64,000 nucleotides of DNA from Pleurocapsa minor GSE-CHR-MK 17-07R (lineage in GTDB: Bacteria > Chloroflexota > Anaerolineae > Aggregatilineales > Phototrophicaceae), in contig JAHHHY010000003.1 in assembly GCA_019359125.1 (NCBI GenBank), positions 1 to 64,000 of the forward strand, given 5' to 3'. Made by a program: the position numbers and the translations under genes. Below, piece after piece: positions 25,532-56,142 of the stretch. The notes below the pieces were generated by a model, which was not told where the DNA came from, did no database searches, and saw nothing but the letters and a program-made list of their open reading frames with translations. The first letter of the stretch is position 1; every line of letters starts with the position of its first letter.

Positions 25532-28105
25532 ATGGCCGATTTTACTCCCCATGAAGCGCCTGCTCATGACGCGCTTTCCCTACCCGTGCAGCCACCGGCC
25601 AAGCTGGTCGGGCGCGATGTTACGATTGGCCGCATCTATCAGCAGCTGAAAGATTTGAAGCCGGTGGTGCTGTATGGCGCGCCCGGCATCGGCAAGTCTG
25701 CGCTTGCGGCCACGCTGGCCAGCGCCTATGCCGAGGTGCCCGGCGGCGTGCTGTATCTGCCCACCAAAGGCGACACCCTGAATGACCTGATCGTGCGCAT
25801 CGGGCGCGCGTACAAGATGCCCACCGTGGTCGGCGCGGATAATCCGGCGGACCAGGGCTATGCGGTCGCGGAAAAGCTGGGCCAGGAAAAGCCGCTGGTC
25901 GTGCTGGACGGCATGCTGACGCCACAGGTCGCGACCGACTTCGTGCAGCGCCTGGCGCGCAACGTGCCTGTGCTGATCGTCAATGAACACGAGATGTCTG
26001 GCCCGTGGCAGGCGATTCGCCTGGGCAAGCTGGAGCCGGCGCAGTCTGCCGCGCTGGTCAGGCTGGCCGGAGATATCAAAGATGACGCGCAGGATGAGGA
26101 TATCCGCGCCCTGTGCGAATCGCTGGCGCACACCCCGCTGGCGCTGCATTTCGCGGCGGCCTGGGTGAAAGCCACCAAACAGCCCGTCTCCGAATTCATC
26201 AAGCTGCTGCCCAATGTCCCCAGCCCTGATATTCCCACTTCGCTGCTGGCGCTGACAGCGTCGTTTCGCAGCCTGAGCGGGCCGTCCAGCGCGCTGCAGG
26301 CCCTGCTGCTGATGCTGGGCGCGGGCTTCACCAGCGGCGCATCGGCAGAGCTGATGAGTATGGTGGCCAATGCGCCCCTCGAAAGCGTCGCCAACGCTTT
26401 TAATCTGTTGGCGGCACGCGGCCTGGTCGAGCGCACTTTCCGCGGCGGCGAAGCCTATTATCGCCTGCATGAGGTCACCGTGACTTTCGTGCAGACGTGG
26501 CTGAAAGGCAGTAAAGGGCTGGACGTGTATCAGCCAAAATTCCGCGATGCTGTGCGCGCCTTCACGCGCAAGTATGCCGAGGCCGTGCGGACAGCGCCGG
26601 GACAGGCCGGCAATCAGCAGAAGCTGGCCGCCGAAATGGACAACATCCTGGCCTGTGCGCGCTGGGCCGCCGACAATGGCGACCGCGACACCGCTAACCA
26701 GATCGCGGCCGCACTCGCCAGCGCGGGCGGGTTCGTCAGCGAGCATGGCTATGCCTATGACGTGCGCCTGCTGCGCGGCTTCACCACCACCAGCAGCAGC
26801 GCCTTCCCCGCCCACGAAATGCCGCCCCCGCCCGCGTCGGTGCCGGCCGCATCCGACGATGAGGACGAAGAAGACGAAGACGTCGATGTGCTGGACGAAG
26901 AAGCCTCTGAAGATGAGGACGAAGAAGACGCCGACGAGCAGGACGATGTGCTTCCCCTCGACGAGATGGATCTCGATGACGAGGATATGGACGACGATAT
27001 CGATGAGGAAGAAGACGATGATGTCGTGCTGGACGAAGTGGATGCCGACGACGATGATCCGTCCGCGCCGCCCATGCCCGCCTCGCTGCCCGTCGAGCCT
27101 GCCCGCACGGCCGTCATTCAGGCGCGCCAGTTAGGCGACCGGCGCCAGCAGGGCGAACAGCTCAGCACCGTCGCGCAGACGCTGGCCGCGGAAGGCAAGC
27201 TGAACGAGGCGCTGGCGACCTACACCGAGGCGCTCACAGCCTACGATGCCGTCAATGACACGCCGGGCATCCTGTCCACGCTGCATGCGCTGGCCGAGCT
27301 GGAAATCAAAACGGATAACCTGCAGGCGGCAGTGCTGCATGCTTCACGCGGCATCACGCTGGCCCATGACTATGACAACACCCCCGCCCGCATCCGCTCG
27401 CTGTCGCTGCTGGGCGATGCGCGCCAGGAGCTGGGCGAGTCGGAAGACGCCATCCGCGCCTATGAATCCGCGCTGGAGCTGACGCGCGCGCAGTCGGATG
27501 ACGCGGGCGAGGCCAACCTGCTGCTCAAGCTGGGCTATGCGCAGCTGGACACGGGCGACTCGGCGCATGCCATCCGCACCTGGGACGACGCGCTGGACAA
27601 AGCGCGGGCGCTGGGCCTGCGGTCCCTGGAAGCGCGGGCGCTGGGCGGCATCGGCACAGCCAAAGGCGAAATGGGCCACTGGACCGAAGCCATCAGCTAC
27701 TACAGCTCATCGCTGCATATTGCGCGTGAGGCGGGCGACCGCGATGAAGAGGCGATCGAGCTGGGCAATCTGGCCCATGCCCATGTGCAGGAAAATCAGC
27801 TTGGCAAGGCCGTGCTGCGCTACCGCCAGGCGCTCCATCTGGCCTACGAATCCAGCAACAAAGCCGCCATCATCGGCACCACGGTCGATCTGGCGCGCCT
27901 GTTTGTGGAAGTGCCGACCTATATGAAGCTGGCCGAACTGATTGTGGATTACGCGATCACGCTCGACGCGCACGATGTCGATCTGCGCCGCCTGAAAGAA
28001 CGCATCGAGGACGAAATGGATGCGCTGGGCGACAGCGTGAATTACAAGCCGGTTGGTGGCAGCGCGCAGCAGTACGCCGCGAATGCCTACGCGCTGGACG
28101 GCTAG
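25532..28105 (+). CDS. STAND/NB-ARC-like ATPase with acidic linker and TPRs
   Basis: An 857-residue cytosolic protein. Residues about 22-345 form an NB-ARC/AP-ATPase-type module: Walker A GAPGIGKS (49-56), Walker B-like KPLVVLDG, the helical ALCESLAHTPLALHFAAAW region and a winged-helix-like segment, LAARGLVERTF. A helical spacer leads to an extraordinarily acidic linker (about 437-511) made almost only of Asp/Glu. Then come about seven tetratricopeptide repeats (about 535-820). STAND ATPases are nucleotide-driven signalling switches that oligomerise on ligand binding at the repeats. No effector domain is visible. It stands alone with a terminator and converges on the kinase operon. Confidence 0.85.
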   Translation: MADFTPHEAPAHDALSLPVQPPAKLVGRDVTIGRIYQQLKDLKPVVLYGAPGIGKSALAATLASAYAEVPGGVLYLPTKGDTLNDLIVRIGRAYKMPTVVGADNPADQGYAVAEKLGQEKPLVVLDGMLTPQVATDFVQRLARNVPVLIVNEHEMSGPWQAIRLGKLEPAQSAALVRLAGDIKDDAQDEDIRALCESLAHTPLALHFAAAWVKATKQPVSEFIKLLPNVPSPDIPTSLLALTASFRSLSGPSSALQALLLMLGAGFTSGASAELMSMVANAPLESVANAFNLLAARGLVERTFRGGEAYYRLHEVTVTFVQTWLKGSKGLDVYQPKFRDAVRAFTRKYAEAVRTAPGQAGNQQKLAAEMDNILACARWAADNGDRDTANQIAAALASAGGFVSEHGYAYDVRLLRGFTTTSSSAFPAHEMPPPPASVPAASDDEDEEDEDVDVLDEEASEDEDEEDADEQDDVLPLDEMDLDDEDMDDDIDEEEDDDVVLDEVDADDDDPSAPPMPASLPVEPARTAVIQARQLGDRRQQGEQLSTVAQTLAAEGKLNEALATYTEALTAYDAVNDTPGILSTLHALAELEIKTDNLQAAVLHASRGITLAHDYDNTPARIRSLSLLGDARQELGESEDAIRAYESALELTRAQSDDAGEANLLLKLGYAQLDTGDSAHAIRTWDDALDKARALGLRSLEARALGGIGTAKGEMGHWTEAISYYSSSLHIAREAGDRDEEAIELGNLAHAHVQENQLGKAVLRYRQALHLAYESSNKAAIIGTTVDLARLFVEVPTYMKLAELIVDYAITLDAHDVDLRRLKERIEDEMDALGDSVNYKPVGGSAQQYAANAYALDG

Positions 28106-28123: not shown

Positions 28124-28159
28124 AAAAACCGGCACATAACGATCATGTGCCGGTTTTTT
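28124..28159. terminator. Bidirectional terminator between convergent genes
   Basis: A 14-bp perfect stem (28124-28137 with 28145-28158) and a 7-base loop. T runs are present on both strands. It serves the STAND ATPase gene on the plus strand and the kinase operon on the minus strand, seven bases from the kinase stop. Confidence 0.92.
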
Positions 28160-28165
28160 ATGCCT

Positions 28166-29281
28166 TTATTTCCCCAACTGTGGCAGCGTGAAACTGAAGC
28201 TGCTGCCTTCGCCCGGCTCCCCGCTGATGAACAATTCTCCGCCCATCAGCAGCAGCACCCGTTTGGCGATGAACATACGCAGGCCGGCGGCTGGCTGCTT
28301 GCTCACCAGCGGCTGATGCATCGCCCGCCAGAACGGCGTGCCAATCTGGTCCAGGTCAGACTCGCTCAGGCCAATGCCCGAATCCGTCACCGTGAACAGC
28401 GTCTGGTCGCCCAGCGTGTCCGCGCTCATGCGGATTGTGCCGCCGTTGGGCGTGTAGCGAATCGCGTTGTCCAGCATGTCGCACAGCACGGTATAGGCGC
28501 GCTCTCCGTCGGCGGTCATCTGCGGCAAGTCATCATCGGCCAGGATAATCACCTGATGGTCAGCGGCAGCGGCACGGGGAAGCAGCTCTTTGCGCGCCTG
28601 CTTCAGCAGGTCTTTCGGCTGAAAATTAAACGGCTTGAGCGCAAACAGGCCGCGCCGCATGTCATGAAGCTGCTCGAAGCTGTCCACCATGCGCAGCGCC
28701 GTCTCAGCATACGGCCGCAGCGTATCGTTGACCTCGCTCTGTTCGCGCAGGGCGGTCAGCACCGGCTTCATCAGCATCGGCATCCGCTGAAGCAGCGCAT
28801 CAGCATTCAGCATGCCGTTGGCCGTTTTCAGCCCGGTGGAGCGCGCAGGCAGCTTGCTGGTATTCGACGACGCAGGCTTGTCTTCAGCAGGCGACACAGC
28901 AGGGGCCAGTGCGCCGGTATCGATCTGCGCGCGCGAGGCCAGAATCTGGGCAAACACGGTGTCAAAATCCATGCTGTCCGGGTCATCGGCGGCCGGCTTC
29001 TGGGCGGTCGGCGCAGACTTTTGCCCCGGGCCGGCCATATCGTCAAACAGGCTCTGGATGACATCCCCGCTGACCGGCTTGTTGTCGCCAGAGCGATTGA
29101 CCTCAGACATCGCCATGGCCTCAGCCTCGACCCAGCGCGTGTACAGAAAGGCGTTTTCCTCTTCCAGCTTGTTCAGCAGCGCGATCACCTCACCCAGCTT
29201 TTTGGCTGTCATCGGTGGCGCTTTCACCTGCAAGGTACTCAGGGTCTGTTTGGCCTGATCGACCTGAATGGCTTCGCTCAT
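28166..29281 (-). CDS. HATPase-domain protein lacking a phosphoacceptor histidine
   Basis: A 371-residue soluble protein. Residues about 255-368 are a GHKL/histidine-kinase ATPase domain: N box VLCDMLDNAIRYTPNGG, G1 box DSGIGL, and an altered G2 region around PAAGLRMFIAKRVL. No H box (HE/DLRTP) is present; the middle is Ala/Pro/Asp-rich linker, with a helix pair about 165-230 where the dimerisation domain would be. It may bind or sense nucleotide, or act on the two neighbouring kinases rather than autophosphorylate. Eleven bases separate it from the gene upstream, and it is the last gene of a four-gene operon. Confidence 0.75.
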   Translation of the reverse strand: MSEAIQVDQAKQTLSTLQVKAPPMTAKKLGEVIALLNKLEEENAFLYTRWVEAEAMAMSEVNRSGDNKPVSGDVIQSLFDDMAGPGQKSAPTAQKPAADDPDSMDFDTVFAQILASRAQIDTGALAPAVSPAEDKPASSNTSKLPARSTGLKTANGMLNADALLQRMPMLMKPVLTALREQSEVNDTLRPYAETALRMVDSFEQLHDMRRGLFALKPFNFQPKDLLKQARKELLPRAAAADHQVIILADDDLPQMTADGERAYTVLCDMLDNAIRYTPNGGTIRMSADTLGDQTLFTVTDSGIGLSESDLDQIGTPFWRAMHQPLVSKQPAAGLRMFIAKRVLLLMGGELFISGEPGEGSSFSFTLPQLGK

Positions 29282-29292
29282 CGTGTCCTCAA

Positions 29293-30207
29293 TCAGCCCG
29301 CTGCCGCGCCGGGGTCCATCCCCGGAATGCGCATGGTGGCCGTCGTCCCCTTGCCCGCTTCACTGCTGATCGTCACCGTGCCGCCCAGCAGCTTCGCCAG
29401 GCCCATCGCCACCGGCACGCCCAGGCCGCTGCCCTTGTACGAGCGCACCAGCTCATTCTCGGACCGGAAATAGACGGTGCCCAGCTTTTCCATATCTTCC
29501 GGCGTGATGCCGATGCCGTTATCGGTCACCGTGACCACCAGCGTATTGCCATCGGTGGTGGCCTTTACCGTGACTTCGCCGCCCTCTTTTTCATGATAGC
29601 GCAGGGCATTTTCCACCAGCTTGTTCAGCGCGCGGGCCAGCAGGTCGCTGTCCAGATTCAGCAGCGGCAGCCCCTGCGGGATGTCAAACACCAGCTTGCG
29701 CCCCAGTTGGTCGGCGGTCGGCTGCATCGCCTTTTCGGTCACCAGCGCGACATTTTTGAACATGTCCATCTTGGCGGTCATCTTCATGGTGCCGCCGCGA
29801 ATCTTGTTCATGTCGGCCACGTCCTGCATCAGCGCCTCCAGGCGCTTGGCATTGGCGCGCACGGTGTCCATGAACTGCTTTTGCATGTCGTTCAGGCCGC
29901 CCATGCCGATCATCATGTCGGTGTAGCCGCGGATGCTCGTCATCGGTGTGCGCAGCTCGTGGATCGCGTGGCCGAAAAACAGCGCCTGGTCACGTTGAAA
30001 CGCCTCGATGTCGGCACCGCCCGCCGCCGCGGCAGCCTTCTTCTCCGCCTCGGCCAGCGCGGCAGACGATTCTGCTTTGGCCGCGCTGATCGCCGCCTGA
30101 ATCGCCTCAATCTGCCCGGGCAGGCGAATCGGGATAATCGCTCCGGTTTTCGCGGCGTTCAGCAGGGCGTCTACCAACTGCGCTGCTTCGTCCAGTGATT
30201 TGCTCAT
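29293..30207 (-). CDS. Soluble sensor histidine kinase
   Basis: A 304-residue cytosolic kinase with no membrane helix. The N-terminal 70 residues are Ala-rich and helical (about 35-62, coiled-coil-like). The dimerisation domain has H box GHAIHELRTPMTSIRG (phosphoacceptor H83). The ATPase domain follows with N box LNKLVENALRYHEKEGG, G1 DNGIGI and G2 GSGLGV. Its start overlaps the stop of the upstream kinase by four bases (ATGA), so translation is coupled. No input domain other than the helical N-terminus is present, and no response regulator lies in the operon. Confidence 0.85.
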   Translation of the reverse strand: MSKSLDEAAQLVDALLNAAKTGAIIPIRLPGQIEAIQAAISAAKAESSAALAEAEKKAAAAAGGADIEAFQRDQALFFGHAIHELRTPMTSIRGYTDMMIGMGGLNDMQKQFMDTVRANAKRLEALMQDVADMNKIRGGTMKMTAKMDMFKNVALVTEKAMQPTADQLGRKLVFDIPQGLPLLNLDSDLLARALNKLVENALRYHEKEGGEVTVKATTDGNTLVVTVTDNGIGITPEDMEKLGTVYFRSENELVRSYKGSGLGVPVAMGLAKLLGGTVTISSEAGKGTTATMRIPGMDPGAAAG

Positions 30208-32057
30208 CTTGCTTCTCCGTCGTCGACTGGCACGCTAAAGGAAAAACGGCTACCCCTGCCGGGCTGGCTCTCGATCCTGATTTCGCTGCCCATCTGCTCC
30301 ACCAGGCTGCGCGTGATGGCAAAGCCCAGGCCAGAGCCGGGCTGGGAGCGCGTGAACTCATCCTCGGCACGCCAGAACTTTGTGCCCAGGTTACGAATCT
30401 GTTCCGCCGTCAGGCCGATGCCGGTATCGGTGATGCTGAACTCGATGCGGCCGGCAAACACCGGGTCGCGGCGCACGGCAAAGGTGATCGTGCCGCCATC
30501 CGGCGTGTACTTATAGGCATTGCTGGTCAGGTTGGTCAGCACTTGCAGCAGGCGATAGTAATCGGCCCGCATATACGGCAGGCCTTCCTCGATATCTTCC
30601 TGCCACAGATGCTGGCGCGCGCTCATCTGCGTCTGGATGGCGTCGCGGATGCCTTGCGCGATGCTCTCGACATCGACCGAATTTTCATCCATGAAGAACT
30701 GTCCGGCCTCGATGCGACTGATATCCGCCAGGTCGCTGACCAGCTTCTCCATCCGGCGCACGGTGTCACGAATCCGATTCACATACGTCACCTGATAATC
30801 GATCAGGTTGTCATCCATCAGCAGCAGGTCGGCATAACCCAGGATGCTGGTCATCGGCACTTTCAGGTCATGCGCCACCACGCCCACAAATTCGCTCTTG
30901 GCCTGGTCGGCGGCCTGCACCGCCGCATACAGGCGGCTGTTTTCGATTGCGCTGGCGGCGCGGGCCAGCACACGCTCCACGATATCCTGCTGGCTCTCGG
31001 TGAAACGCCCTGCATGGCGCAGCACAACGGCACCGATCACATTGCCTTCGTGCACAATCGGCACCACCATCACGCTTCTGTTATCGTTCAGCACCGTTTC
31101 CTGGCGCTCTATAGCCTCATTGACCTGCGGGAAGGTCCGGTCCAGCAGCAGCGGCTGGGTGTCATGCTTGGGTAAGCCAAAGTGATACGCAGCGGGCATA
31201 CGCCCATCGTTCAGCAGGCCCAGGTGGCCGATCTCGGCGCCAGACATGCGGCAGGCAAATTCCAGCGTCAGCTCAATCGCCTTCACCGGGTCAAGCGTCT
31301 CGGCAAGCTGGCGGTCGATGCCGCGCAGTTTGGTCAGCAAGTCCACTTTGGCCGCCAATTCCTGATCGGTAGCGGCAAACAGGCGCGCATTTTCGATGGC
31401 GATGGCCGCCTGCGACGCAAATGCCTTGAGCGATTCCACCGTGGTTTCCTCGCCAAAGCTGGCGATATTGCGGGTATCGGCATAAATCACGCCGATATTC
31501 TGGCCGCGCATCGCCAGCGGCACCGCGACAATCGTGCGCAGCTGCTGGTTGACGATGCTGGCCTGCATATTGAAGCGTGGGTCTTCGGCCGCGTTGGTGG
31601 TCAGCACCGACTCGCCGGTCTCCATCACGCGGTTGACGACACCGCGGCTGTATTTGAACTGGTCGCTGCCCAGCGTCTGCTGGTCAAAGTTACGCGCTGC
31701 ATGTACCGTCAGCCCGCCATCATCGTCGCGCAGCATCAGGAAGCCGCGGTCCGCGCTGGTCAGCGTAATCACCGAGTCCATCACCGTATCCAGCACGTGC
31801 TGCAAATCCAGCGATTCGCCCACCGCACGGGTGACCGTGTACAGCAGGGTGGTCTGCGCCTGCGCTTTCATGACGGTGCGCTCGGCTTCCAGCTTTTCCA
31901 GCAGGCCGCTCATGCGATCAAGCTGCTTGCTCAGATAGGCCGTATCGACCCGCCCGCTGCTGATCTGCGTCTTGAGCAGGGTCAGCGCCTGGCGCATATT
32001 GATGATTTCGAAATCACTGGCGCGTGACACGGAAACGGGCTGCTGGCCGTCGGTCAT
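30204..32057 (-). CDS. GAF-GAF histidine kinase
   Basis: A 617-residue cytosolic sensor kinase. A helical/coiled-coil start (about 35-70) is followed by GAF domain 1 (about 85-225), GAF domain 2 (about 245-375), a dimerisation domain with H box VGVVAHDLKVPMTSI (H396) and a complete ATPase domain (N box LTNLTSNAYKYTPDGG, G1 DTGIGL, G2 GSGLGF). GAF domains bind cyclic nucleotides, tetrapyrroles or other small ligands; ligand residues were not identified. It overlaps nth upstream and the next kinase downstream by four bases each. The cognate receiver is not in this operon. Confidence 0.88.
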   Translation of the reverse strand: MTDGQQPVSVSRASDFEIINMRQALTLLKTQISSGRVDTAYLSKQLDRMSGLLEKLEAERTVMKAQAQTTLLYTVTRAVGESLDLQHVLDTVMDSVITLTSADRGFLMLRDDDGGLTVHAARNFDQQTLGSDQFKYSRGVVNRVMETGESVLTTNAAEDPRFNMQASIVNQQLRTIVAVPLAMRGQNIGVIYADTRNIASFGEETTVESLKAFASQAAIAIENARLFAATDQELAAKVDLLTKLRGIDRQLAETLDPVKAIELTLEFACRMSGAEIGHLGLLNDGRMPAAYHFGLPKHDTQPLLLDRTFPQVNEAIERQETVLNDNRSVMVVPIVHEGNVIGAVVLRHAGRFTESQQDIVERVLARAASAIENSRLYAAVQAADQAKSEFVGVVAHDLKVPMTSILGYADLLLMDDNLIDYQVTYVNRIRDTVRRMEKLVSDLADISRIEAGQFFMDENSVDVESIAQGIRDAIQTQMSARQHLWQEDIEEGLPYMRADYYRLLQVLTNLTSNAYKYTPDGGTITFAVRRDPVFAGRIEFSITDTGIGLTAEQIRNLGTKFWRAEDEFTRSQPGSGLGFAITRSLVEQMGSEIRIESQPGRGSRFSFSVPVDDGEAR

Positions 32058-32770
32058 GAGGTCTGTTTTCCCTGTGAGGCCTGATAATAATCACAGTGGG
32101 CAGTCAGCGGGCAGCGACTGCATTCGGGCCCACGCGCATGGCAAACTTTGCGCCCGTGCCAGATCAGATTGAGATGAAACGCATAATAGTCGTCTGGCCG
32201 CACGATGGCTTCCATCACCGGATGCGCCTTGTCCGCCGTGATTTTATCGGGCAGGAAGCCGATGCGCATGCCCAGCCGATGCACGTGCGTATCCACCGGA
32301 AAGGCCTCGCGGTTGAAGGCGAAACACAGCACGATCGCGGCCGTCTTCGGCCCCACCCCATCAAACTGCGTCAGCCATGCTTTGGCCTCGTCAATCGGGA
32401 TGTCGTTCAAAAAGTCGATGTTCAATTCGCCGCGTTCGGCAAAAATGGCGCGCAGCACGCCCTGGATGCGCGGCGCTTTCTGGTTGGCCAGCCCGGCCGG
32501 CTTGATCGCGTTGACCACTTCATCCACCGGCGCGGTCATCACGCTTTCCCAGTCGGGGAAGCGCGCCTTCAGGCCGGCAAAGGCGCGGTCACGGTTGGCA
32601 TCGTTGGTGCTCTGGCTGAGGATGCAATCGACCAGCTCATCCAGCGGGGGCAGCGCACGCCGCCAGGTCGGATAGCCATAGGTCTCGTACAGCGCGGCCG
32701 AAACCGGCGGATACTTGGCAGCGCGGCGCGCAAAGTCGGGCATCGTGGTGGGATCGAAGTTCTGCGTCAT
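32054..32770 (-). CDS. nth: Endonuclease III-like DNA glycosylase
   Basis: A 238-residue base-excision-repair glycosylase/AP lyase. The helix-hairpin-helix FDGVGPKTAAIVL carries the catalytic lysine. Downstream is the catalytic aspartate in FPVDTHVHRL. The C-terminus has the iron-sulfur cluster loop CHARGPECSRCPLTAHC, i.e. C-x6-C-x2-C-x5-C. It removes oxidised pyrimidines, and all key residues are present. ATG 32770 starts the protein (an in-frame upstream codon at 32794 is weaker). Its stop overlaps the start of the GAF kinase by four bases, so a repair enzyme leads an operon of three kinases. Confidence 0.88.
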   Translation of the reverse strand: MTQNFDPTTMPDFARRAAKYPPVSAALYETYGYPTWRRALPPLDELVDCILSQSTNDANRDRAFAGLKARFPDWESVMTAPVDEVVNAIKPAGLANQKAPRIQGVLRAIFAERGELNIDFLNDIPIDEAKAWLTQFDGVGPKTAAIVLCFAFNREAFPVDTHVHRLGMRIGFLPDKITADKAHPVMEAIVRPDDYYAFHLNLIWHGRKVCHARGPECSRCPLTAHCDYYQASQGKQTS

Positions 32771-32855
32771 GAATCTCTTGCTGCCTCGCGGCACTTAAAC
32801 TTTCAGAAAGAATACCCTTAATTTGTCGTTTCCACGTGTATACATTTGGCCGGCT

Positions 32856-33914
32856 TCAATCCAGCACCCCGACGTAATCGGCCTGCGCCACCTGTGACAG
32901 CGTGCCATCCTTGGCATCCAGCAGCCAGGTGCCCTGCGTGTTCACGTTCACCAGCAGCACGCCGTTCCCATCAGACGTCCATGCGACCGGACGCAGCGGC
33001 TCCAGAAACACGTCACCCAGCGGACGAGCCTGCTCCGCCGGAATATCGACCAGCACAAACTGCGTCTCGCGCCCGCCCGATTCCGTCCGCCGCCCCAGCA
33101 CATACACCGCCTGCTGGGCCGTCGGCGAGACCAGCACATCCCCGCCCAGCGTGAAGCTTTCCGGTTGCGGCGCGCTGATCAGATGCGATACTTCCGTGCG
33201 CAGGTGCACCGTGCGCACATCAAACCCGCCTGACCCCAGCACCAGCCGCACCAGCTGGTCATCGAAGATATCCGCGCCGCAGAAGCAGCCAGCCTCGCCC
33301 GGCAGCGAGGTCGCCGCGCCAGTGGCGATATCCAGCGCAAACAGCGCCGCGAACTGGCGATACGGCGCGATCAGCCCAATCGCGTCCGGCTGATAATCCA
33401 TATACACACGCTTGTTGTCGGCGCTGAACGTGAGCGGATAGGCGCGGATGCCATCACGCGGGCCGTCGCGGAAAATCAGCCCGCGATTGGCCCCGTCACT
33501 GCGCGACGCCCATGTCTCGGTCACCAGCGCGTTCGACGGGCCGGACGTGTGCGTCCAGGCGATCCACGTGCCATCTTCAGACGCGGCCCAGTCGATACGC
33601 GTGTCGCCCGGCCGCATCTGCATGAACGGATGCGCTTCAGGTTGCTCGTCTGGCGTGGCGCGCATCACCAGGCCGGTCTCGCGGTCAAAATACAGCACGG
33701 CATCACCGGCCGTCGCAAAGCCCGTGCCCGCCGCGTCAGCAGTGTCGCGCACACCCGTCAGCACGTTCTCGAAAATGAGCTGTCCCGCATTGGCCGACTG
33801 AGTGCGCTCAAAAAAGACCTGAATGGTGCCGGCAGTCTGCGCCAATACGCCGCCCGTCAGCAGCAGGCCAGCGGCCAGCAGCAGCGGCATCAGGCCATAT
33901 TTTCCGCGTATCAT
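32856..33914 (-). CDS. Secreted beta-propeller-like protein, unknown function
   Basis: A 352-residue exported protein. The signal peptide is about 1-27 (ending VLAQ). The body is made of WD/TolB-like strands: WAASEDGTWIAWTHTSG, LTFSADNKRVYMDYQPD and VAWTSDGNGVLLVNV. No catalytic motif is visible and a CxC pair (GCFCG) occurs mid-protein. It resembles the secreted protein at 60644 in architecture but not in detailed sequence. ATG 33914 begins the signal peptide; five residues more are possible from 33929. It lies upstream of nth with 85 bases between them. Confidence 0.7.
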   Translation of the reverse strand: MIRGKYGLMPLLLAAGLLLTGGVLAQTAGTIQVFFERTQSANAGQLIFENVLTGVRDTADAAGTGFATAGDAVLYFDRETGLVMRATPDEQPEAHPFMQMRPGDTRIDWAASEDGTWIAWTHTSGPSNALVTETWASRSDGANRGLIFRDGPRDGIRAYPLTFSADNKRVYMDYQPDAIGLIAPYRQFAALFALDIATGAATSLPGEAGCFCGADIFDDQLVRLVLGSGGFDVRTVHLRTEVSHLISAPQPESFTLGGDVLVSPTAQQAVYVLGRRTESGGRETQFVLVDIPAEQARPLGDVFLEPLRPVAWTSDGNGVLLVNVNTQGTWLLDAKDGTLSQVAQADYVGVLD

Positions 33915-34067
33915 CACAAGTCTGTCCATTTATGCTTTATCTTGCCAAGCAAGGGCGGCCATCAGTCAGACAACCGCCACGAAGTCCCAGTATACCCCGC
34001 CTCATGCATCTGCGGAACAGGTTACGCCGTATACTGGGCGCAGGCGGATTCACTCAAGGGGCAGCAA

Positions 34068-40259: not shown

Positions 40260-40430
40260 TCACAAATTAGGGGAACTTTTCATAATTCCTCAAGCGACAG
40301 CAAATCTTAGTTGTGGTTCACTGAATGTGAAAAGCTAAGCTGATTCAGCAAACTGTGTCAGCACAAATCGGGCACTATGCGCCGCACGATGTACGCAGTG
40401 CGGCGCGACACTCAACAAGTGAGTACAGGC

Positions 40431-42026
40431 ATGGCGGGCACGTCGCGGCACATTCAACCAACAGTCGAAGATCTCAATCTGCTGATCGAGATCTCGCAGA
40501 TGCTGACCCTGCTCGACCGTGACCGCCTGCTGGACCGCGTCGTGGAAGTGGCGGCCAAGTCGTTTGGTGCAGAGCGCGCCACCCTGCTGCTCAATCCCGA
40601 TGCGCCAAGCGACTGGCAGCAGATCCTGATCCGCTATCGCGCCGATGACAGCAGTATCGAGCACATGGACCCGACGCAGTCGGTACGCTTTGCCCGGCGC
40701 GCCTGGGACAAGGGGCTGGCCGGTATCGTCGCGCGTGAAAAACACGGCATCATCATCCAGGATACCAACGAAGACACCCGCTGGCAGAAATTCGAAAACA
40801 GCACCTCAGCGGCACGGTCGGTGCTGTGCGTGCCGTTTGTGCTGAACAACAACATGGTTATCGGCGTGCTCACGCTCCAGCACAGCGACGCTGCGCAGTT
40901 TGACGAAAACGATCTGGCCCTGCTGACGATCATCGCCAACCAGGCCAGCGTTGCCCTCAGCAACGCCCAGCTCTTCCACAATCTCCAGCAGACCGAGAGC
41001 AAGCTGCAGGGCATCCTCAGCGCCATGCCAGACCCGATCGTCGTCATCGACAACAGCGACCGCGTCATCATGATGAATGAGGGCGCCGATTCACTCAGGC
41101 AGCAGGGCGTCACGCTGGAGCTGGGCAAATTGATCACCGACTGCATCGCGCCAGACAGCCCGTTCCAGCAGATTGTCCCGCTGGTAAAGGAAGCCAGGCC
41201 GCTGAAAGAGACCCGCACCTGGGAGGTGCACAGCCAGACAGCCCGCCGTGACTTTCAGGTGCAGGCCTCGTCGTGGGCCAGCCGTGGCCAGACCAATGAG
41301 GGCCACGCATTCGTCGTGCGCGATATCACCGCCCTGCGCGACCTGAATCGCTTCAAGGATGAGATGCTGCATCTGGCCTCGCACGACCTGCGCAGCCCGC
41401 TGGCGCTGATCGTCGGCTACTGTTCTCTGATTGAGCTGGATATCGAGCCGGACTCGATTATCAATGAGCACATCCAGGCCATTTACCGCGCCACCACCCG
41501 CATGCAGGGGCTGATGGATGATCTGCTGCGCGTGGAGAAAATCCGCACATCTGCGCTGGAGCTGATGGAAATGCTGTCAGTGCGCGAACTGGTGGAGTCG
41601 GCCGCTGCCAATGTGCAGGCTGAGTTTGAGGCAAAAGGACAGTCATTCACATTGTCCTTCGAGGTTGATGAAGACGCGGTTGTGCGCGGCAATAAAGGGC
41701 TGCTGCGTGAAGCCCTGGAAAATTACCTGAACAACGCCCAGAAATACACGCCAGCTGGCGGCGCTGTTCGCCTGGCCGTGCGGCCCAGCGGCCAAAATCT
41801 GAAGATTAGCGTGGAAGATACCGGCATTGGCATCCCCGAAGAAGCGATTCAGCGGGTGTTCGAGGCCTTTTATCGGGCGCGCCAGGTGGGCACCGAGCAG
41901 GTGGAAGGGCGCGGGTTTGGCCTGCATCTGGTCAAGACAATTCTGGAGCGCCACGGCGGGTCTGTGTGGGTGACGAGCAAGGCTGGCATGGGCAGCATTT
42001 TCGGGATGGAGCTTCCCCGCGCCTAG
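40431..42026 (+). CDS. GAF-PAS sensor histidine kinase
   Basis: A 531-residue cytosolic kinase. GAF domain about 18-182 (AERATLLLNP, SAARSVLCVPFV), PAS domain about 190-300 (ILSAMPDPIVVIDNSDRVIMMNEGA), dimerisation domain with H box LASHDLRSPLALIVG (H318), and a complete ATPase domain (ALENYLNNAQKYTPAGG, DTGIGIP, GRGFGLHLVK). No membrane helix. It follows the M42 operon across a 170-base gap with an imperfect hairpin (40306-40339), so it probably has its own promoter. ATG 40431 was chosen; ATG 40377 would add 18 residues. A candidate orphan kinase with no adjacent receiver. Confidence 0.87.
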   Translation: MAGTSRHIQPTVEDLNLLIEISQMLTLLDRDRLLDRVVEVAAKSFGAERATLLLNPDAPSDWQQILIRYRADDSSIEHMDPTQSVRFARRAWDKGLAGIVAREKHGIIIQDTNEDTRWQKFENSTSAARSVLCVPFVLNNNMVIGVLTLQHSDAAQFDENDLALLTIIANQASVALSNAQLFHNLQQTESKLQGILSAMPDPIVVIDNSDRVIMMNEGADSLRQQGVTLELGKLITDCIAPDSPFQQIVPLVKEARPLKETRTWEVHSQTARRDFQVQASSWASRGQTNEGHAFVVRDITALRDLNRFKDEMLHLASHDLRSPLALIVGYCSLIELDIEPDSIINEHIQAIYRATTRMQGLMDDLLRVEKIRTSALELMEMLSVRELVESAAANVQAEFEAKGQSFTLSFEVDEDAVVRGNKGLLREALENYLNNAQKYTPAGGAVRLAVRPSGQNLKISVEDTGIGIPEEAIQRVFEAFYRARQVGTEQVEGRGFGLHLVKTILERHGGSVWVTSKAGMGSIFGMELPRA

Positions 42027-42207: not shown

Positions 42208-42681
42208 ATGTCTAACAGTAATTATCTGACCAAAGATGGCTTACGTGATCTGGAAAACAGACTGCAGTTCCTGAAAGAGACGCGTCGTCCTGAAGTGGCC
42301 GAGCGCCTGCGCCTCGCGCTGGACGAAGGCGGCGACCTGACTGAAAATGCTGAATATGACGACGCCAAGAACGAGCAGGCGTTTGTTGAAGGCGAAATCC
42401 TGCGCCTGGAAACCATCATCACCAACGCGCAGATTATCGAGCCGACCAAGGGCAAAAAAGACACGGTGCAAGTCGGTTTCACGGTCACGGTCGTGGAACA
42501 GGGCACCACCACCAAGGAAACCTTCCATCTGGTCGGTTCTGCCGAGGCGAACCCGGCCAACGGCAAGATTTCCACAGAAAGCCCGCTGGGCAAGGCGCTG
42601 CTGGGCGCCAAAGTGGGCGACAAGGTGCGCGTAAATGCGCCCGGTGGCGAGCTGACCTTCACGATCAAGGCGATCAGCTAA
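42208..42681 (+). CDS. greA: Transcription elongation factor GreA
   Basis: A 157-residue GreA. The N-terminal coiled coil (about 1-75) begins YLTKDGLRDLENRLQFL and carries the acidic tip DLTENAEYDDAKNEQ, which reaches into the RNA polymerase secondary channel. The C-terminal FKBP-like domain has VGSAEANPANGKISTESPLGKALLGAKVGD. It rescues backtracked RNA polymerase by stimulating transcript cleavage. It has its own terminator and precedes lysS, an arrangement common in bacteria. Confidence 0.96.
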   Translation: MSNSNYLTKDGLRDLENRLQFLKETRRPEVAERLRLALDEGGDLTENAEYDDAKNEQAFVEGEILRLETIITNAQIIEPTKGKKDTVQVGFTVTVVEQGTTTKETFHLVGSAEANPANGKISTESPLGKALLGAKVGDKVRVNAPGGELTFTIKAIS

Positions 42682-42707
42682 GGCTGACCTGATACTGGAT
42701 ACTCGTG

Positions 42708-42737
42708 AAAGCCCCGCCGCGCGCGGGGCTTTTTTTT
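42708..42737 (+). terminator. Terminator of greA
   Basis: A 10-bp perfect stem (42708-42717 with 42723-42732) and a 5-base loop, with an 8-T tail. A strong intrinsic terminator 27 bases after the stop codon. Confidence 0.95.
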
Positions 42738-42741
42738 CGGC

Positions 42742-42747
42742 TATAAT
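42742..42747 (+). promoter_or_regulatory. -10 hexamer upstream of lysS
   Basis: A perfect TATAAT just after the greA terminator and 57 bases before the lysS ATG. No convincing -35 exists at 16-18 bases, because that region is occupied by the terminator stem. Transcription of lysS is therefore likely independent of greA, but the promoter strength is uncertain. Confidence 0.45.
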
Positions 42748-42803
42748 GCGAGCGCTTTCGTCCATAATGAGTTATACGCACCCTGTCAGGAGTACATGCG
42801 GCC

Positions 42804-44381
42804 ATGTGGCAGCCCAATCGCCTTGAGCAAGAACGGCTCGACAAACTGAATGAAATTGAAGCGCGCGGCGTCTCCGCTTTTCCGGCGCGTGTGAAACGCA
42901 CGCACGAGGCTGCCGCTGCCATCGCCGCGTTTGAGTGGGCAGAAAGCAGAGCTGCGGGCAGCGAGCCAGCCGAGGTGCAGGTGACGGTGGCGGGCCGCAT
43001 CCGCCGTATCAACGTGAAGGGCAAAATTTCCTTCATGCATATCGAGGACGAAAGCGGCCGCGTGCAGTTGTTCCTGCGCATCAACGACATGGACGAAGCG
43101 CAGTATGCGCTGGTGGCCGACAAGCTGATCGACACGGACGACTTCGTGCAGGCCGAGGGCGTGATGATGCGCACCAAGGCCGGCGAGGTCAGCGTGCGCG
43201 TGACCGCCCTGACGCTGCTCTCGAAGTCGCTCAGCCCCCTGCCGGTCATCAAGCAGCAGGTGCAGGACGACGGCACGGTGCGCGAGTACGGACAGTTCAC
43301 CAATACCGAGGCGCGCTATCGCCAGCGTTATGCAGACCTGGCCGTCAACCAGGGCATCCGCGACACGTTTGTGCAGCGCGCGCGCATCATCCGCGCCATC
43401 CGCAGCTTCATGGACAGCGAAGGCTGCCTTGAGGTCGAGACGCCCATCCTGCAACCGCTGTATGGCGGCGCGGCGGCGCGCCCGTTCATCACGCACCATA
43501 ACCAGCTTGACGAAGACCTGTACCTGCGCGTCAGCTTCGAGCTGTACCTGAAGCGCCTGCTGGTGGGCGGATTCAGCGGCGTATACGAGCTGGGGCGCGA
43601 CTTCCGTAACGAGGGCGTGAGCTGGAAGCACAATCCCGAGTTCACGATGCTGGAATTTTACAAGGCCTATATCGATTATCACGGCGTCATGGACATGACC
43701 GAGCGCATGGTGTGCGCGGCAGTCGAGGCCGTGCATGGCTCGCGCCAGGCCCCGTTCAAGGACTATGTGATCGATTACACGCCCGGCTGGAAACGGCTGA
43801 CCATGCGCGAAGCGATCAAGGCCGAAACCGGTATCGACTATATGGACTTTCTCGACCGTGACGCCCTGGAAGCGCGCATCCGCCAGATGAACCCGCACGA
43901 CCTGGCGCCCGGTCAGCCGTGGGGCAAGCTGGTCGAATATCTGCTGGGCGAATACGTCGAGAAGAAGCTCATCCAGCCGACGTTTATCATCGATTACCCG
44001 CGCGATATTTCGCCCTTCGCCAAGCGCGTGTCCTATGACGATTTCCACGTCGAGCGCTTCGAGTTCTACATTGCCGGCATGGAGATGGGCAACGCGTTCA
44101 CCGAGCTGAACGACCCGCGCGACCAGGAAGCGCGTTTCCTCGACATGGCGCGCACGTTCCGCCCTGAGGATGATGACGCCGCGCCGATCGACCAGGACTA
44201 CCTGCGCGCCATGCGCTATGGCATGCCGCCCAACGGAGGCTTCGGCATGGGCATCGACCGCCTGGTGATGCTGATTACCAACCAGGACAGCATCCGTGAC
44301 GTGCTGCTGTATCCCGCGCTCAAGCAGCTCAAAGACGAGGGTGAGGGTGAGTCGGCGGCTGAAGAAGCGCCGGACGCGTGA
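42804..44381 (+). CDS. lysS: Lysyl-tRNA synthetase (class II)
   Basis: A 525-residue LysRS. An N-terminal OB-fold anticodon-binding domain (about 55-170) has VAGRIRRINVKGKISFMHIED. The class II catalytic core has motif 2 FRNEGVSWKHNPEFTMLEFY and motif 3 GFGMGIDRLVMLI near the end. It charges tRNA-Lys with lysine. The tail after residue 505 is acidic (DEGEGESAAEEAPDA), unusual but harmless. ATG 42804 has AGGAG ten bases upstream. Confidence 0.95.
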   Translation: MWQPNRLEQERLDKLNEIEARGVSAFPARVKRTHEAAAAIAAFEWAESRAAGSEPAEVQVTVAGRIRRINVKGKISFMHIEDESGRVQLFLRINDMDEAQYALVADKLIDTDDFVQAEGVMMRTKAGEVSVRVTALTLLSKSLSPLPVIKQQVQDDGTVREYGQFTNTEARYRQRYADLAVNQGIRDTFVQRARIIRAIRSFMDSEGCLEVETPILQPLYGGAAARPFITHHNQLDEDLYLRVSFELYLKRLLVGGFSGVYELGRDFRNEGVSWKHNPEFTMLEFYKAYIDYHGVMDMTERMVCAAVEAVHGSRQAPFKDYVIDYTPGWKRLTMREAIKAETGIDYMDFLDRDALEARIRQMNPHDLAPGQPWGKLVEYLLGEYVEKKLIQPTFIIDYPRDISPFAKRVSYDDFHVERFEFYIAGMEMGNAFTELNDPRDQEARFLDMARTFRPEDDDAAPIDQDYLRAMRYGMPPNGGFGMGIDRLVMLITNQDSIRDVLLYPALKQLKDEGEGESAAEEAPDA

Positions 44382-44466
44382 GAAGCTTGGCTAAGCCACC
44401 AGCACACGAACTCGTTCACACACCATTGAATCATCCAGCCTCACCCCGTTTCGCTTCGCTCAACCG

Positions 44467-44492
44467 CCCCTCATCCACGTTGTGGAGAGGGG
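44467..44492. repeat. Interspersed palindromic repeat, copy 2
   Basis: It matches 35-60 with three differences, having CCCCTC/GAGGGG arms and a CCAC/GTGG core. It is embedded in a larger imperfect palindrome from CCTCACCCC (44439) to GGGGTGAGG (44520), with a further small hairpin AAACCC...GGGTTT inside. It fills most of the gap between lysS and the PAS kinase. Confidence 0.6.
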
Positions 44493-44543
44493 CAAAAACC
44501 CGCAGGGTTTTGGGGTGAGGTTGTATGGTTCGTTCCAGCAAAT

Positions 44544-44573
44544 GCCAGCCCGTTCCCGTGACGCTGGCGTTTT
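44544..44573 (+). terminator. Possible terminator of lysS
   Basis: GCCAGC (44544-44549) pairs with GCTGGC (44563-44568) around a 13-base loop, followed by GTTTTG. The T run is short and the site is 160 bases from the stop, so assignment is tentative. Confidence 0.45.
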
Positions 44574-44676
44574 GAAACCTTCACAATCGTGCGGCACAAT
44601 TATCCCGTAGAATGAGGGCAACACAGCGCGGTTCCGGGAAACGGCGAGCTATCGCCATAAAGGTCGTCCACACACT

Positions 44677-45819
44677 ATGTCATCCACCAGCGGGCTTCCT
44701 GCACAATCCCTGATTGACGGGCTGGGACAAGGCATCCTGATTTTTGATGCCGACAATCACCTGCTGATGTCGAATCAGGCTGCCCGCCATATCCTCGGCG
44801 CTGACCTGCGCATGATCAAGGCGCAGGGATGGAAAGCAGTCACCGCGCTGTTTGGCGCGCGCCAGCCCAATCCCGACCATCTGCCCGAAGCTGCCCGTGC
44901 GCGCGCGCTGGCCTCGGAATACCCGGTGCGATTTCACGCCTTTTACGGCGGCGACTACCTGCCGTGTTTTGCCTCAGCGGTACGCGCCTCCAGCGGCGAC
45001 ATCTACACCATGATCACGCTGGAGCAGCCAGACTGGACGCCGATCACCGATCTGTTTGACACCTTCCTCAACGAAGTACACGAGAATTCGTCCAGCACGC
45101 GCGGCCATGCCGATCTGATCCTCGCCAGCCTGAAGCGGCCGAAGCCGAATGAGACGGTCGAAGGCCTGAGCAAGCGCATCGGCGGCTTTGCCGGGCTGAT
45201 CCAGACGCACATGCACCGCCTGATTCGGCTGGCCGACATGATGGCGCGCATGGAGCGCCTGCGCACCAATCATCTGCGCGACGAAGTGCAAAGCGCGACG
45301 CGAACGCTGGACCTGCGCGACTTCATCGAGGATTTCATCGAATCGCTGGGCGAAGACCATTTCCTCGACCCGGAAACCGAGAAGCAGGATTACCGCAGCC
45401 GCATCACCCTGAAGGTGCCATCGAACCTGCGCGTGCAGGCCTCGCCTGCCCACCTGTCGGCCGTATTGCGGGACATGCTGCGAAATGCTATCATGTACAG
45501 CATGATGGCGACGCCAATCGTGCTGTCTGCGCAGGAACATGACAGCGGCATTCAGCTCGATCTGAGCGACGAAGGCTATGGCATCCGCGCCAGCGAAACC
45601 GAGCGCGTGATCCTGCCTTTCCAGCGCGGGCGGCAGCCACAGATTATCAGCGAGTTTGGCTATGGCCTGAGCATTTATCTGTGCAAGGCGGAAGTGGAAG
45701 CCATGAACGGCCGGTTGTGGTTTGAAAGCGAAGAAGGTGTGGGGACGACATTCAGCATCAAGCTGCCGTCTGCTGCCAGCGCGCCTGCCAGCCGCTCGTC
45801 GTCGGGACGAAGCGCATAA
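44677..45819 (+). CDS. PAS-domain histidine kinase with altered H box
   Basis: A 380-residue cytosolic kinase-like protein. PAS-like domain about 8-120 (LGQGILIFDADNHLLMSNQAARHILG). The dimerisation helix follows, where the usual H-E-L-R-T-P box reads EVHENSSSTRG: histidine 135 and glutamate 136 are kept, but the proline and arginine are lost. The ATPase domain (about 255-365) has N box VLRDMLRNAIMYS, G1 DEGYGI and G2 EFGYGLSIY. It could still autophosphorylate, but the degenerate box makes this uncertain. There is no receiver nearby, and a terminator follows. Confidence 0.78.
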   Translation: MSSTSGLPAQSLIDGLGQGILIFDADNHLLMSNQAARHILGADLRMIKAQGWKAVTALFGARQPNPDHLPEAARARALASEYPVRFHAFYGGDYLPCFASAVRASSGDIYTMITLEQPDWTPITDLFDTFLNEVHENSSSTRGHADLILASLKRPKPNETVEGLSKRIGGFAGLIQTHMHRLIRLADMMARMERLRTNHLRDEVQSATRTLDLRDFIEDFIESLGEDHFLDPETEKQDYRSRITLKVPSNLRVQASPAHLSAVLRDMLRNAIMYSMMATPIVLSAQEHDSGIQLDLSDEGYGIRASETERVILPFQRGRQPQIISEFGYGLSIYLCKAEVEAMNGRLWFESEEGVGTTFSIKLPSAASAPASRSSSGRSA

Positions 45820-45855
45820 CCCACCCGTGCCTGCAATAATTTTGGATGTTTCGCG

Positions 45856-45888
45856 ATGCTTCTCCAATTATTCAGGGGAAGCATTTTT
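45856..45888 (+). terminator. Terminator of PAS kinase gene
   Basis: A 10-bp stem (45856-45865 with 45875-45884, one G-T pair) around a 9-base loop, followed by a TTTTTG run. It separates the kinase from the small membrane protein/serS unit. Confidence 0.85.
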
Positions 45889-45917
45889 GTTTGGAAAGTG
45901 GGGACACAGGCCGCATC

Positions 45918-46073
45918 ATGGAAAATCTGACGCCTGAGTTTTTCGACACCATCATCGTCGTCGTGATCATTATTGGCCTGGCCCTGGCTGCCGTGCGGCT
46001 GTATCGCGATTTCACGCGGCCGCTTCCGCCAGAGCGTCCTGTTTACCCGAAGGAAATCGAACCTCATGATTGA
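45918..46073 (+). CDS. Small single-helix membrane protein upstream of serS
   Basis: A 51-residue protein, MENLTPEFFDTII at the start, then one transmembrane helix (about 12-29) and a basic, Pro-rich tail (RPLPPERPVYPKE). No family was recognised. It overlaps the serS start by eight bases, so its translation is probably linked to serS. The short length makes it uncertain, but the clean hydrophobic segment followed by an arginine-rich turn looks like a real small membrane protein. Confidence 0.5.
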   Translation: MENLTPEFFDTIIVVVIIIGLALAAVRLYRDFTRPLPPERPVYPKEIEPHD

Positions 46074-47475
46074 TATTGCGCTGATTCGCGAGAAAACCGA
46101 CTGGGTGAAAGAGCAGATCGGCAAGCTGTATGATGCCGCCGCGCTGGAGCGGATCGACTCGATCGTCGCGCTGGACACCGAGCGCCGCGCCCTGATGACC
46201 CGCTCCGAGAACACCCAGGCCGCGCGCAACAAGCTGAACAAGCTGGTGGGCATGCTGCGCGGCAGCAAGTCGCTGGATGAGACGCGCCGCGCCCAGCTGG
46301 CCTGGCTGGCGACGCAGGCCATCAGCGCCGGGGATTATGACCGCGCCGCTGAGGCGATGTCGGGCACGCTGGCCGATGACGCGCCCGATGCACCCGCCGA
46401 CGCGGTAGCCAGCCTGATGACCGCGCTCGGCGGACTGGGCACGACCGTCGAGAGCCTGAACGATGCGCTGCGCCTGGTGGATGCCCGTCTGGAAGAGGCC
46501 ATGCTGTGGCTGCCCAACCTGCCCCACGAGAGCGTGCCTGTTTTCGAGAGCGAAGACAACAACAAGCCGTGGCCGCCCGAAGGCGCGATGCCCGCATTTG
46601 ACTTTGAGCCGAAAGCGCACTGGGACCTGGGCCCGGCGCTGGGCATCATCGACTTTGACAGCGGCATCAAGATTCACGGGTCACGCGGGTATGTGCTGCG
46701 CGGCGCCGGTGCCCGGCTTCAGCGCGCGCTGATCAGCTTCTTCCTGGATATGGCGCGCAAGGCGGGCTTCACCGAGTTTTACGTGCCCTATATGGTGCGC
46801 GAGGAAAACCTGTACGGCTCGGCCCAGCTGCCCAAGTTCCGCGACACGGTCTATGAAGACACCGACGCCGAGCTGTTCATGGTGCCCACGGCCGAAGTCG
46901 CGCTGACCAATATCCACCGCGACGACATCCTGGAGGAGGCCCAGCTTCCGCTGTACTACGTCGCGCATACGCCGTGCTTCCGCCGCGAAAAGATGAGCGC
47001 CGGGCGCGATGTGCGCGGCATCAAGCGCGTGCACCAGTTTGAAAAAGTCGAGATGTACAAGTTCACCACGCCGGAAACCAGCTATGCCGAGCTGGAAAGC
47101 CTGACCGAAGCCGCGTCAGATATCCTGCGCGCGCTGAAGCTGCCGTTCCGCCGCCTGGAAATCGTCAGCGGCGACCTGGGCTTCAGCGCCAGCAAGAAGT
47201 ATGACCTGGAGGTGTGGAGCGCGGGCTGCCAGGAATGGCTGGAAGTCAGCTCATGCAGCAACACCGAGGCTTTCCAGGCACGGCGCGCCAATATCAAGTA
47301 TCGCCCGGCCGAGGGCAAGCGCACGCAGTATGTGCACACGCTCAATGGCAGCGGGCTGGCCGCCCCGCGCGTGATGATCGCCATTCTGGAAAACAATCAG
47401 CAGGCCGATGGCTCGGTCGTGGTGCCGGATGTGCTGCGCCCGTATCTGGGCACCGATATCATCCTGCCGGAATAG
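46066..47475 (+). CDS. serS: Seryl-tRNA synthetase
   Basis: A 469-residue SerRS. The N-terminal helical arm (about 1-110) binds the long variable arm of tRNA-Ser. The class II core has motif 2 FRREKMSAGRDVRGIKRVHQFEKVEM and motif 3 NGSGLAAPRVMIAILENNQ. A long Ala/Asp-rich stretch in the arm (about 85-140) is slightly longer than usual. It charges tRNA-Ser. ATG 46066 overlaps the end of the small upstream gene, and AAGGAAAT lies nearby. A bidirectional terminator follows. Confidence 0.95.
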   Translation: MIDIALIREKTDWVKEQIGKLYDAAALERIDSIVALDTERRALMTRSENTQAARNKLNKLVGMLRGSKSLDETRRAQLAWLATQAISAGDYDRAAEAMSGTLADDAPDAPADAVASLMTALGGLGTTVESLNDALRLVDARLEEAMLWLPNLPHESVPVFESEDNNKPWPPEGAMPAFDFEPKAHWDLGPALGIIDFDSGIKIHGSRGYVLRGAGARLQRALISFFLDMARKAGFTEFYVPYMVREENLYGSAQLPKFRDTVYEDTDAELFMVPTAEVALTNIHRDDILEEAQLPLYYVAHTPCFRREKMSAGRDVRGIKRVHQFEKVEMYKFTTPETSYAELESLTEAASDILRALKLPFRRLEIVSGDLGFSASKKYDLEVWSAGCQEWLEVSSCSNTEAFQARRANIKYRPAEGKRTQYVHTLNGSGLAAPRVMIAILENNQQADGSVVVPDVLRPYLGTDIILPE

Positions 47476-56054: not shown

Positions 56055-56142
56055 TACACCCTCGCTTAACGTAGCAGCAGGCACACACCTGGCATGATGA
56101 TATGGTCATCTGCCTGAGTGTGCACCTGCCCCAGTATCGCCA

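Follow-up and report, generated by a model that had tools for sequence, protein, structure and literature searches.

A stretch of 64,000 nucleotides from contig JAHHHY010000003.1 of Pleurocapsa minor GSE-CHR-MK 17-07R (Chloroflexota; Anaerolineae), here called the window, carries on its minus strand an endonuclease III-like gene (nth) followed by three genes for histidine kinase-type proteins, here named K1, K2, and K3 (Table 1). Our best reading of this unit, to which we assign a probability of about 0.5 on the basis of its genes and their neighborhoods, is that of an orphan multi-kinase hub that would be co-translated with a housekeeping endonuclease III-like glycosylase. The coordinates, order, strand, and tight spacing given in an initial annotation of the DNA stand: nth and K1 overlap by 4 bases, K1 and K2 likewise by 4 bases, and K2 and K3 are separated by a gap of 11 bases.

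Conservation of the nth-K1 pair

The positions of nth and K1 were determined independently in each of 41 genomes of the order, and their adjacency on one strand was then scored. nth lies directly before K1 on the same strand in 35 of the 41 genomes, i.e., in 15/15 of the genus, 9/10 of the rest of family f1, and 11/16 of the other families. A chance arrangement is thereby ruled out, and so is one limited to a single genome. Of 41 nth-K1 pairs (all loci fetched by then), 22 could overlap by four bases as ATGA or GTGA, in agreement with the translation-coupled layout proposed initially; loci L077, L078, L082, and L083 are the same contigs as L025, L023, L034, and L039 and were excluded from this count as well as from the His, box, and GAF residue counts below. 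Exceptions within the order include G015, which has no K1, and G026 and G033, which have no clear K1. The K1 frame is broken in G035.

Beyond the order, 9 of 199 sampled class genomes contain K1 at E 1e-110, a strict threshold under which the K1 of G170 goes undetected, and 3 of 301 phylum genomes do so at E 1e-105; the named loci found with K1 (n = 8) come from Anaerolineae or Chloroflexi metagenome-assembled genomes. K1 adjoins nth in one (G170) of the 14 nth neighborhoods read outside the order, which were among the best nth scores. In G448, a genome of the phylum sample outside the order, both genes are adjacent with a four-base overlap, while G204 and G230 carry K1 without nth within the 12 kb fetched. 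All four of these outside kinases group with K1 in a tree, away from a 1,393-amino-acid (aa) paralogue (82/94; the tree contains two very long rows). The pair also occurs in G170 and G448, both in the class and outside the order; the nth-K1 link thus predates this genus and probably the order as well.

Three related kinases, one of them a conserved pseudokinase

Pfam analysis assigned two GAF_2 stretches, HisKA, and HATPase_c to K1, HisKA and HATPase_c to K2, and only HATPase_c above the cut-off to K3. K1 and K2 are canonical histidine kinases, combining a HisKA domain that contains the phospho-acceptor His with the N, G1, F, and G2 boxes of the HATPase domain. No membrane domain family was matched in K1 to K3 in the Pfam scan, a dedicated membrane predictor not having been run, and the highest 19-residue hydropathy means of 1.7 (K1, inside the second GAF domain), 1.5 (K2), and 1.4 (K3) are in keeping with solubility.

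In a tree of the ATPase domains (63 rows, 119 columns), K1, K2, and K3 form a single clade (95/93) together with the 1,393-aa protein, a large membrane GAF kinase of the same genome (G000:C5). The kinases were compared with 28 other fetched kinases of the genome, the unit's own locus L122 having been left out of these, plus two proteins encoded in the window, a 549-aa kinase and a PAS-HATPase protein. Both of the latter fall outside the clade, and the core of the 549-aa kinase (40377-42026) does not group with K1 to K3 in the trees. Because their ATPase domains form one clade among the kinases compared, K1, K2, and K3 look like tandem paralogues. When the dimerization and histidine phosphotransfer (DHp) domain was included, K1, K2, and the 1,393-aa kinase grouped again (95/77). 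Among the kinases of the window, the closest to K3 is K1 (94.7 bits), followed by K2 (73.9 bits); the 1,393-aa kinase encoded elsewhere scores 89.7 bits.

The phospho-acceptor His is present in 45/45 K1 sequences (of 46 K1 rows, the truncated one of L033, with 457 aa, was omitted) and 39/39 K2 sequences but in 0/18 K3 orthologues. K3 hence lacks the His in the DHp domain by which a canonical histidine kinase is recognized, as the initial annotation had stated for one of the three kinases. In a joint alignment with six K2 sequences, the K3 residue at this place is Asp in seven, Glu in five, Gly in three, and Met, Phe, and Lys in one sequence each; the window copy has Met. Of the ATP-pocket motifs, D-N-A (I-N-A in one row), D-x-G-x-G, and the F box are kept and G-x-G-L is mostly kept, the window copy reading AAGL instead. 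Fifteen of the 18 sequences retain the complete HisKA-like first helix, which is truncated in the window copy, L030, and L028. As the ATP-pocket motifs and a mostly full-length first helix remain without the His, K3 derives from a normal kinase. Judged by these alignments, K3 is a conserved histidine-kinase pseudokinase, in which a catalytic element was lost and the loss itself is conserved. In one relative (L078:8783-10663), K3 comprises 627 aa and is about 250 residues longer than the window K3, with the surplus between the N terminus and the ATPase domain.

Alternatively, K3 could be an independent Bergerat-fold ATPase or protein kinase, similar to anti-sigma factors, that acts on a non-receiver target and has nothing to do with K1/K2 signaling. 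A His missing in 18/18 sequences with retained ATP motifs would fit such a protein, as would the location of K3 away from K1 and K2 in G002, G012, and G013 (L061-L063). The full-length first helix in most orthologues, the grouping of the ATPase domain with those of K1 and K2, and K1 as the closest window kinase speak against this idea, which we regard as very improbable.

A hairpin shared by K1 and K2

The N termini provide a second connection between the kinases. Residues ~15 to 60 of K1 and ~3 to 45 of K2 resemble one helix-turn-helix, and the structure model of K1 (mean predicted local distance difference test score [pLDDT] of 77.1, predicted template modeling score of 0.40) places helices at residues 15 to 32 and 39 to 79. 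The K3 model, calculated from a single sequence, has a mean pLDDT of 39.7. Comparison of the two hairpins by hhalign gave 91.5% and a score of 32.5, while the best of 60 column shuffles reached 13.6 and the reversed profile 8.7. The alignments comprised 43 K1 rows, 37 of 39 K2 rows, and 18 K3 rows, with rows of >35% gaps excluded. One of the 43 K1 rows behind the score of 32.5 (L091) is wrong, as it holds the tail of nth; without it the comparison yielded 92.3% and a score of 33.5, and with the tool's own alignments, where this row is absent as it is from the K1 profile search, 87.9%. Six other proteins in the sequence set run a few or more residues beyond their stop. A rotated-column control scored up to 32.3, 14.8, and 12.9 and was not counted as a null, because it preserves most of the column order.

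Searched against 25 genomes, the K2 hairpin profile matched K2 only (16 genomes), and the K1 profile matched K1 (22 genomes), one K1-like protein in G029, and the K2 of G027 at E 0.004. Matches to input rows are expected by construction, and the informative part is the near-absence of others. No Pfam family was matched above threshold by eight hairpin pieces, which gave only sub-threshold matches. A hairpin in the G448 kinase was rejected: the K1 profile scored 20.9 (best shuffle, 20.9), the K2 profile 15.7 (best shuffle, 14.1), and the K3 profile 10.3 (best shuffle, 13.3), with 40 shuffles for each profile. The shared hairpin and the paralogy make the multi-kinase assembly suggested initially plausible.

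Locus layout and gene neighborhood

Just 3' of K3, a 9-bp hairpin followed by TTTTT was read by eye at 28153-28124; a scan by program did not list it. Across this hairpin and convergent with K3 lies a gene for an 857-aa TPR protein (25532-28105) that starts like an AAA-type ATPase (a match below the Pfam cut-off) and contains a long stretch rich in Asp and Glu. At the other end, a co-directional gene for a 357-aa protein ends 85 bases ahead of the nth ATG. The same gene precedes nth in 20 of 24 f1 genomes with nth-K1 (at distances of 971 and 361 bases in two of them). nth therefore need not head the operon, contrary to what had been assumed. A promoter scan found one candidate against 1.7 expected. 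The 357-aa protein has no Pfam or NCBIfam match; its gene often stands behind a sirtuin gene in f1, which is missing there in the window.

Table 1. Features of the nth-kinase unit and its borders in the window
Feature	Coordinates	Strand	Description
nth	32054..32770	(-)	endonuclease III-like HhH-GPD glycosylase, 238 aa; alternative GTG start at 32794 possible
K1	30204..32057	(-)	GAF-GAF-HisKA-HATPase histidine kinase, 617 aa
K2	29293..30207	(-)	HisKA-HATPase kinase, 304 aa, without known sensor domain
K3	28166..29281	(-)	HATPase pseudokinase, 371 aa; DHp without His, shortened in window copy
K1 N-terminal helical hairpin (residues ~15-60)	31878..32015	(-)	profile comparison and model
K2 N-terminal hairpin, homologous to K1 hairpin	30073..30201	(-)	profile comparison
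K3 N-terminal segment, possibly same hairpin (marginal)	29144..29263	(-)	profile comparison
Hairpin with T run/A run	28124..28153	(.)	probable terminator of unit, perhaps also of convergent gene; from reading letters
357-aa protein, N-terminal hydrophobic stretch, no family	32856..33929	(-)	upstream neighbor of nth

The fullest string in family f1 reads sirtuin, 357-aa protein, nth, K1, (PIG-L), K2, (K3), greA, lysS, PAS-HATPase, serS. K2 lies downstream of K1 within ~1.3 kb in 28 of the 41 order genomes (tblastn map). In 12 of the 41, K1 and K2 are separated by a gene for a PIG-L deacetylase, which is absent from this place in the window. Because of this PIG-L gene, the kinase trio is not clearly an ancestral unit. 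G164 retains nth-PIG-L-K2, and G015 and G215 retain nth-PIG-L, in all three cases without K1 at the nth locus. Of the PIG-L genes at C21 and C5 of the window's own genome, the one compared, at C21, is unlike the string PIG-L at E 1e-4. The nearest solved relative of one string PIG-L is the Dbv21 pseudoaglycone deacetylase. A thiol-biosynthesis role of the neighboring PIG-L was rejected, as two genes scored ≤21 bits against cut-offs of ≥182.5.

In the window, the greA-lysS-PAS-HATPase-serS block is found at 42208-47475, on the opposite strand to nth-K1-K2-K3. Its PAS-HATPase protein (44677-45819), encoded between lysS and serS, has no HisKA match and keeps a His in its helix region, in another setting (H-M-x-R); in the string of the relatives, it is a second HisKA-less ATPase together with K3 (10 loci). 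The 549-aa protein mentioned above, a GAF-HisKA-HATPase kinase, is encoded directly before greA, in the slot that K3 occupies in several relatives.

Among the 11 non-f1 genomes of the order with nth-K1, the sirtuin, the 357-aa protein, greA, and lysS were matched in 0/11 fetched stretches, whereas PIG-L is retained in six and K2 in five. With the f1 flanks unmatched in these stretches and nth-K1 kept, the link is not a matter of general synteny and the pair outlives its surroundings.

These data bear on an alternative explanation, namely that K1 sits behind nth for the convenience of a steady housekeeping message, that each kinase forms its own homodimer with its own receiver, and that nth and a joint complex are irrelevant. 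The f1 string, with greA, lysS, serS, sirtuin, and PIG-L genes that have no common function, would fit such hitch-hiking on expression. The distribution of the genes agrees with it: the nth subfamily is present in 159 of 199 sampled class genomes (E 1e-45), far more than the nine with K1 at its strict cut; 13 of the 14 nth neighborhoods read outside the order have no K1 alongside; K1 is apart from nth in family f2; and K2 and K3 come and go. On the other hand, the nth-K1 link has lasted longer than the others in the string, both in the order and in two genomes outside it, and the K1/K2 hairpin is nearly private to these two kinases in the 25 genomes searched. We consider hitch-hiking a serious possibility, short of probable.

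Sensing, receivers, and DNA damage

nth carries the GVGPKTA Lys, the VDTH Asp, and the CX6CX2CX5C cluster cysteines of endonuclease III, whose catalytic and cluster roles we take to be those of Escherichia coli Nth. It exceeds the cut-off of HhH-GPD (PF00730), scores 99.8 bits against TIGR01083 (curated cut-off, 211.7), and is also below the curated cut-off of NCBIfam NF053634 (DR2438 family). Its nearest solved relatives are the endonuclease III-1 entries 8a5c and 4unf, presumably from Deinococcus radiodurans. The catalytic and cluster residues are the same as in D. radiodurans endonuclease III-1 and NF053634, from which the window nth differs by its scores below the cut-offs of NF053634 and TIGR01083. 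In its own genome, nth is the sole match of its kind at E 1e-15.

The initial annotation had proposed that the kinases might sense oxidative damage. In this scenario they would answer oxidative or base damage, with nth as an effector or as a sensor of damage through its Fe-S cluster. The tight coupling of the kinases to a DNA glycosylase with intact catalytic and cluster residues is what recommends it. No near-invariant Cys or His was found in either GAF domain among 45 K1 sequences, the best being Cys269 in 23 of them, which speaks against heme, bilin, or thiol sensing via a universal residue. No other repair gene was present among the genes recognized in the conserved string, and nth is class-wide, mostly without an adjoining K1 in the neighborhoods read outside the order. 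Damage sensing is therefore not supported and seems very improbable.

Phosphotransfer to the receiver encoded at 55698 had also been suggested. This type of receiver, as query at E 1e-3, matched 4 of 83 loci (L021-L103) in no conserved place; with this one receiver as the query, the unit has no linked cognate receiver that would make it a two-component pair. The receiver at 55698 as a partner thus receives no support from neighborhood conservation and was dropped. Because no receiver has a conserved place nearby, we view the hub as an orphan with its output receivers encoded elsewhere. The gene at 55698-56084 encodes a stand-alone receiver domain of 128 aa, and right downstream of it on the same strand a repeat-rich, TPR-like protein (label from reading) is encoded at 55105-55683. 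In G170, nth is preceded at a distance of 154 bases by a gene for an OmpR-type response regulator (L138:7645-9199), resulting in the order regulator-nth-K1.

Evaluation and proposed mechanism

Several observations weigh against an nth-coupled multi-kinase hub. The contiguous trio, with K3 next after K2, occurs in only 10 of the 41 order genomes, a count limited by contigs that stop just past K2 in G011 and G018; the three-kinase unit of the initial annotation is thus present in the window and uncommon as such in the order. The link of nth to the kinases holds in close relatives and breaks in family f2, where K1 is present but apart from nth in 3/3 genomes (G025, G032, and G038), as well as at the nth loci of G015, G164, and G215. 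For K3, the hairpin is marginal, with scores of 14.9 versus 12.2 and 13.5 versus 11.6 for the best of 60 shuffles. The hairpin is also missing from the K2 of family f8 (250 aa), the K2 of f3 is unmatched, and the K1 of G170 begins right at its GAF domain, without a hairpin. For the OmpR-type regulator of G170, the search of the 41 genomes brought up no clear one-to-one orthologue, the best hits having ≤38% identity. Furthermore, the ATPase tree has only 119 columns, leaves 27 of 60 inner branches open with the bootstrap unsettled, and covers 29 fetched kinases and the 549-aa kinase out of 70 HisKA matches in the genome. The tree that includes the DHp domain pairs K3 with the downstream PAS-HATPase protein (99/97) and not with K1/K2. 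Of the two, we trust the ATPase tree more, because K3 and the PAS-HATPase protein both lack a normal DHp domain.

In the orphan multi-kinase hub that we favor, K1, a cytoplasmic two-GAF histidine kinase, would be the oldest partner of nth. K2 would be a paralogue that has the same hairpin and a kinase core and lacks GAF domains. K3 would be another paralogue, in which the phospho-acceptor His was replaced, in most cases by Asp or Glu, and the ATP-pocket motifs were retained; the duplications presumably ran in this direction. The three kinases may act jointly: K1 would sense a cytosolic signal via its GAF domains, K2 could serve as a second phosphodonor, and K3, as an ATP-binding pseudokinase, might tune K1 and K2 or act on them in trans. 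The hairpin would help the kinases to find each other, and phosphate would pass to at least one receiver encoded elsewhere. The link with nth would then lie in expression (translation that is fixed and coupled, from a message kept at a steady, housekeeping level) and is no proof of damage sensing. Mutual binding of K1, K2, and K3 and any role of nth are what we infer from the gene sequences.

A more far-reaching version would be a new cytoplasmic module of Anaerolineae, in which a glycosylase is coupled to an orphan GAF kinase that was tandem-duplicated to a hetero-oligomeric trio, joined by a private hairpin and controlled by an ATP-binding pseudo-histidine-kinase with an acidic residue in place of the phospho-His, so that repair capacity and signaling are kept in a fixed ratio. 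We consider this full version speculative and rather unlikely.

Relation to known kinase networks

Among the solved structures closest to K1 are the kinase regions of RetS and GacS, and DivL is a near one as well. DivL carries Tyr in place of His, and to our knowledge, RetS and GacS are not coupled to a repair gene. The RetS-GacS type multikinase network of Pseudomonas comprises several sensor kinases, at least one of which acts on another kinase (PMC5992135, PMC12148439). The unit described here differs in that it consists of tandem paralogues without a membrane domain, with a predicted interaction, and is coupled to nth. In Caulobacter, DivL is described as a degenerate histidine kinase modulating another kinase, CckA (PMC9491836). 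In contrast to DivL-CckA, K3 has its gene next to those of its paralogues, lacks a known sensor domain, and mostly carries Asp or Glu at the place of the His (12/18). The same source reports that the paralogous kinases ChrS and HrrS of Corynebacterium glutamicum heterodimerize in their native forms in two-hybrid assays and that a pseudokinase form of ChrS, whose catalytic domain was lost by a laboratory-evolved frameshift, alters signaling; for this truncated form, no heterodimer was seen (PMC9491836). K3, in contrast, lost the His and kept the ATP pocket, and did so across many species. No paper on an association of a repair gene with a kinase was found in narrow searches of an open-access library.

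The unit thus offers a natural, testable case of a histidine-kinase tandem duplication that would have ended in a pseudokinase kept over many species. Within a single coupled string, live and dead paralogues adjoin, and the short module that is shared could be an assembly tag. In addition, a DNA-repair gene is coupled to a kinase more widely than to the rest of its neighborhood in a little-studied group of the Chloroflexota.

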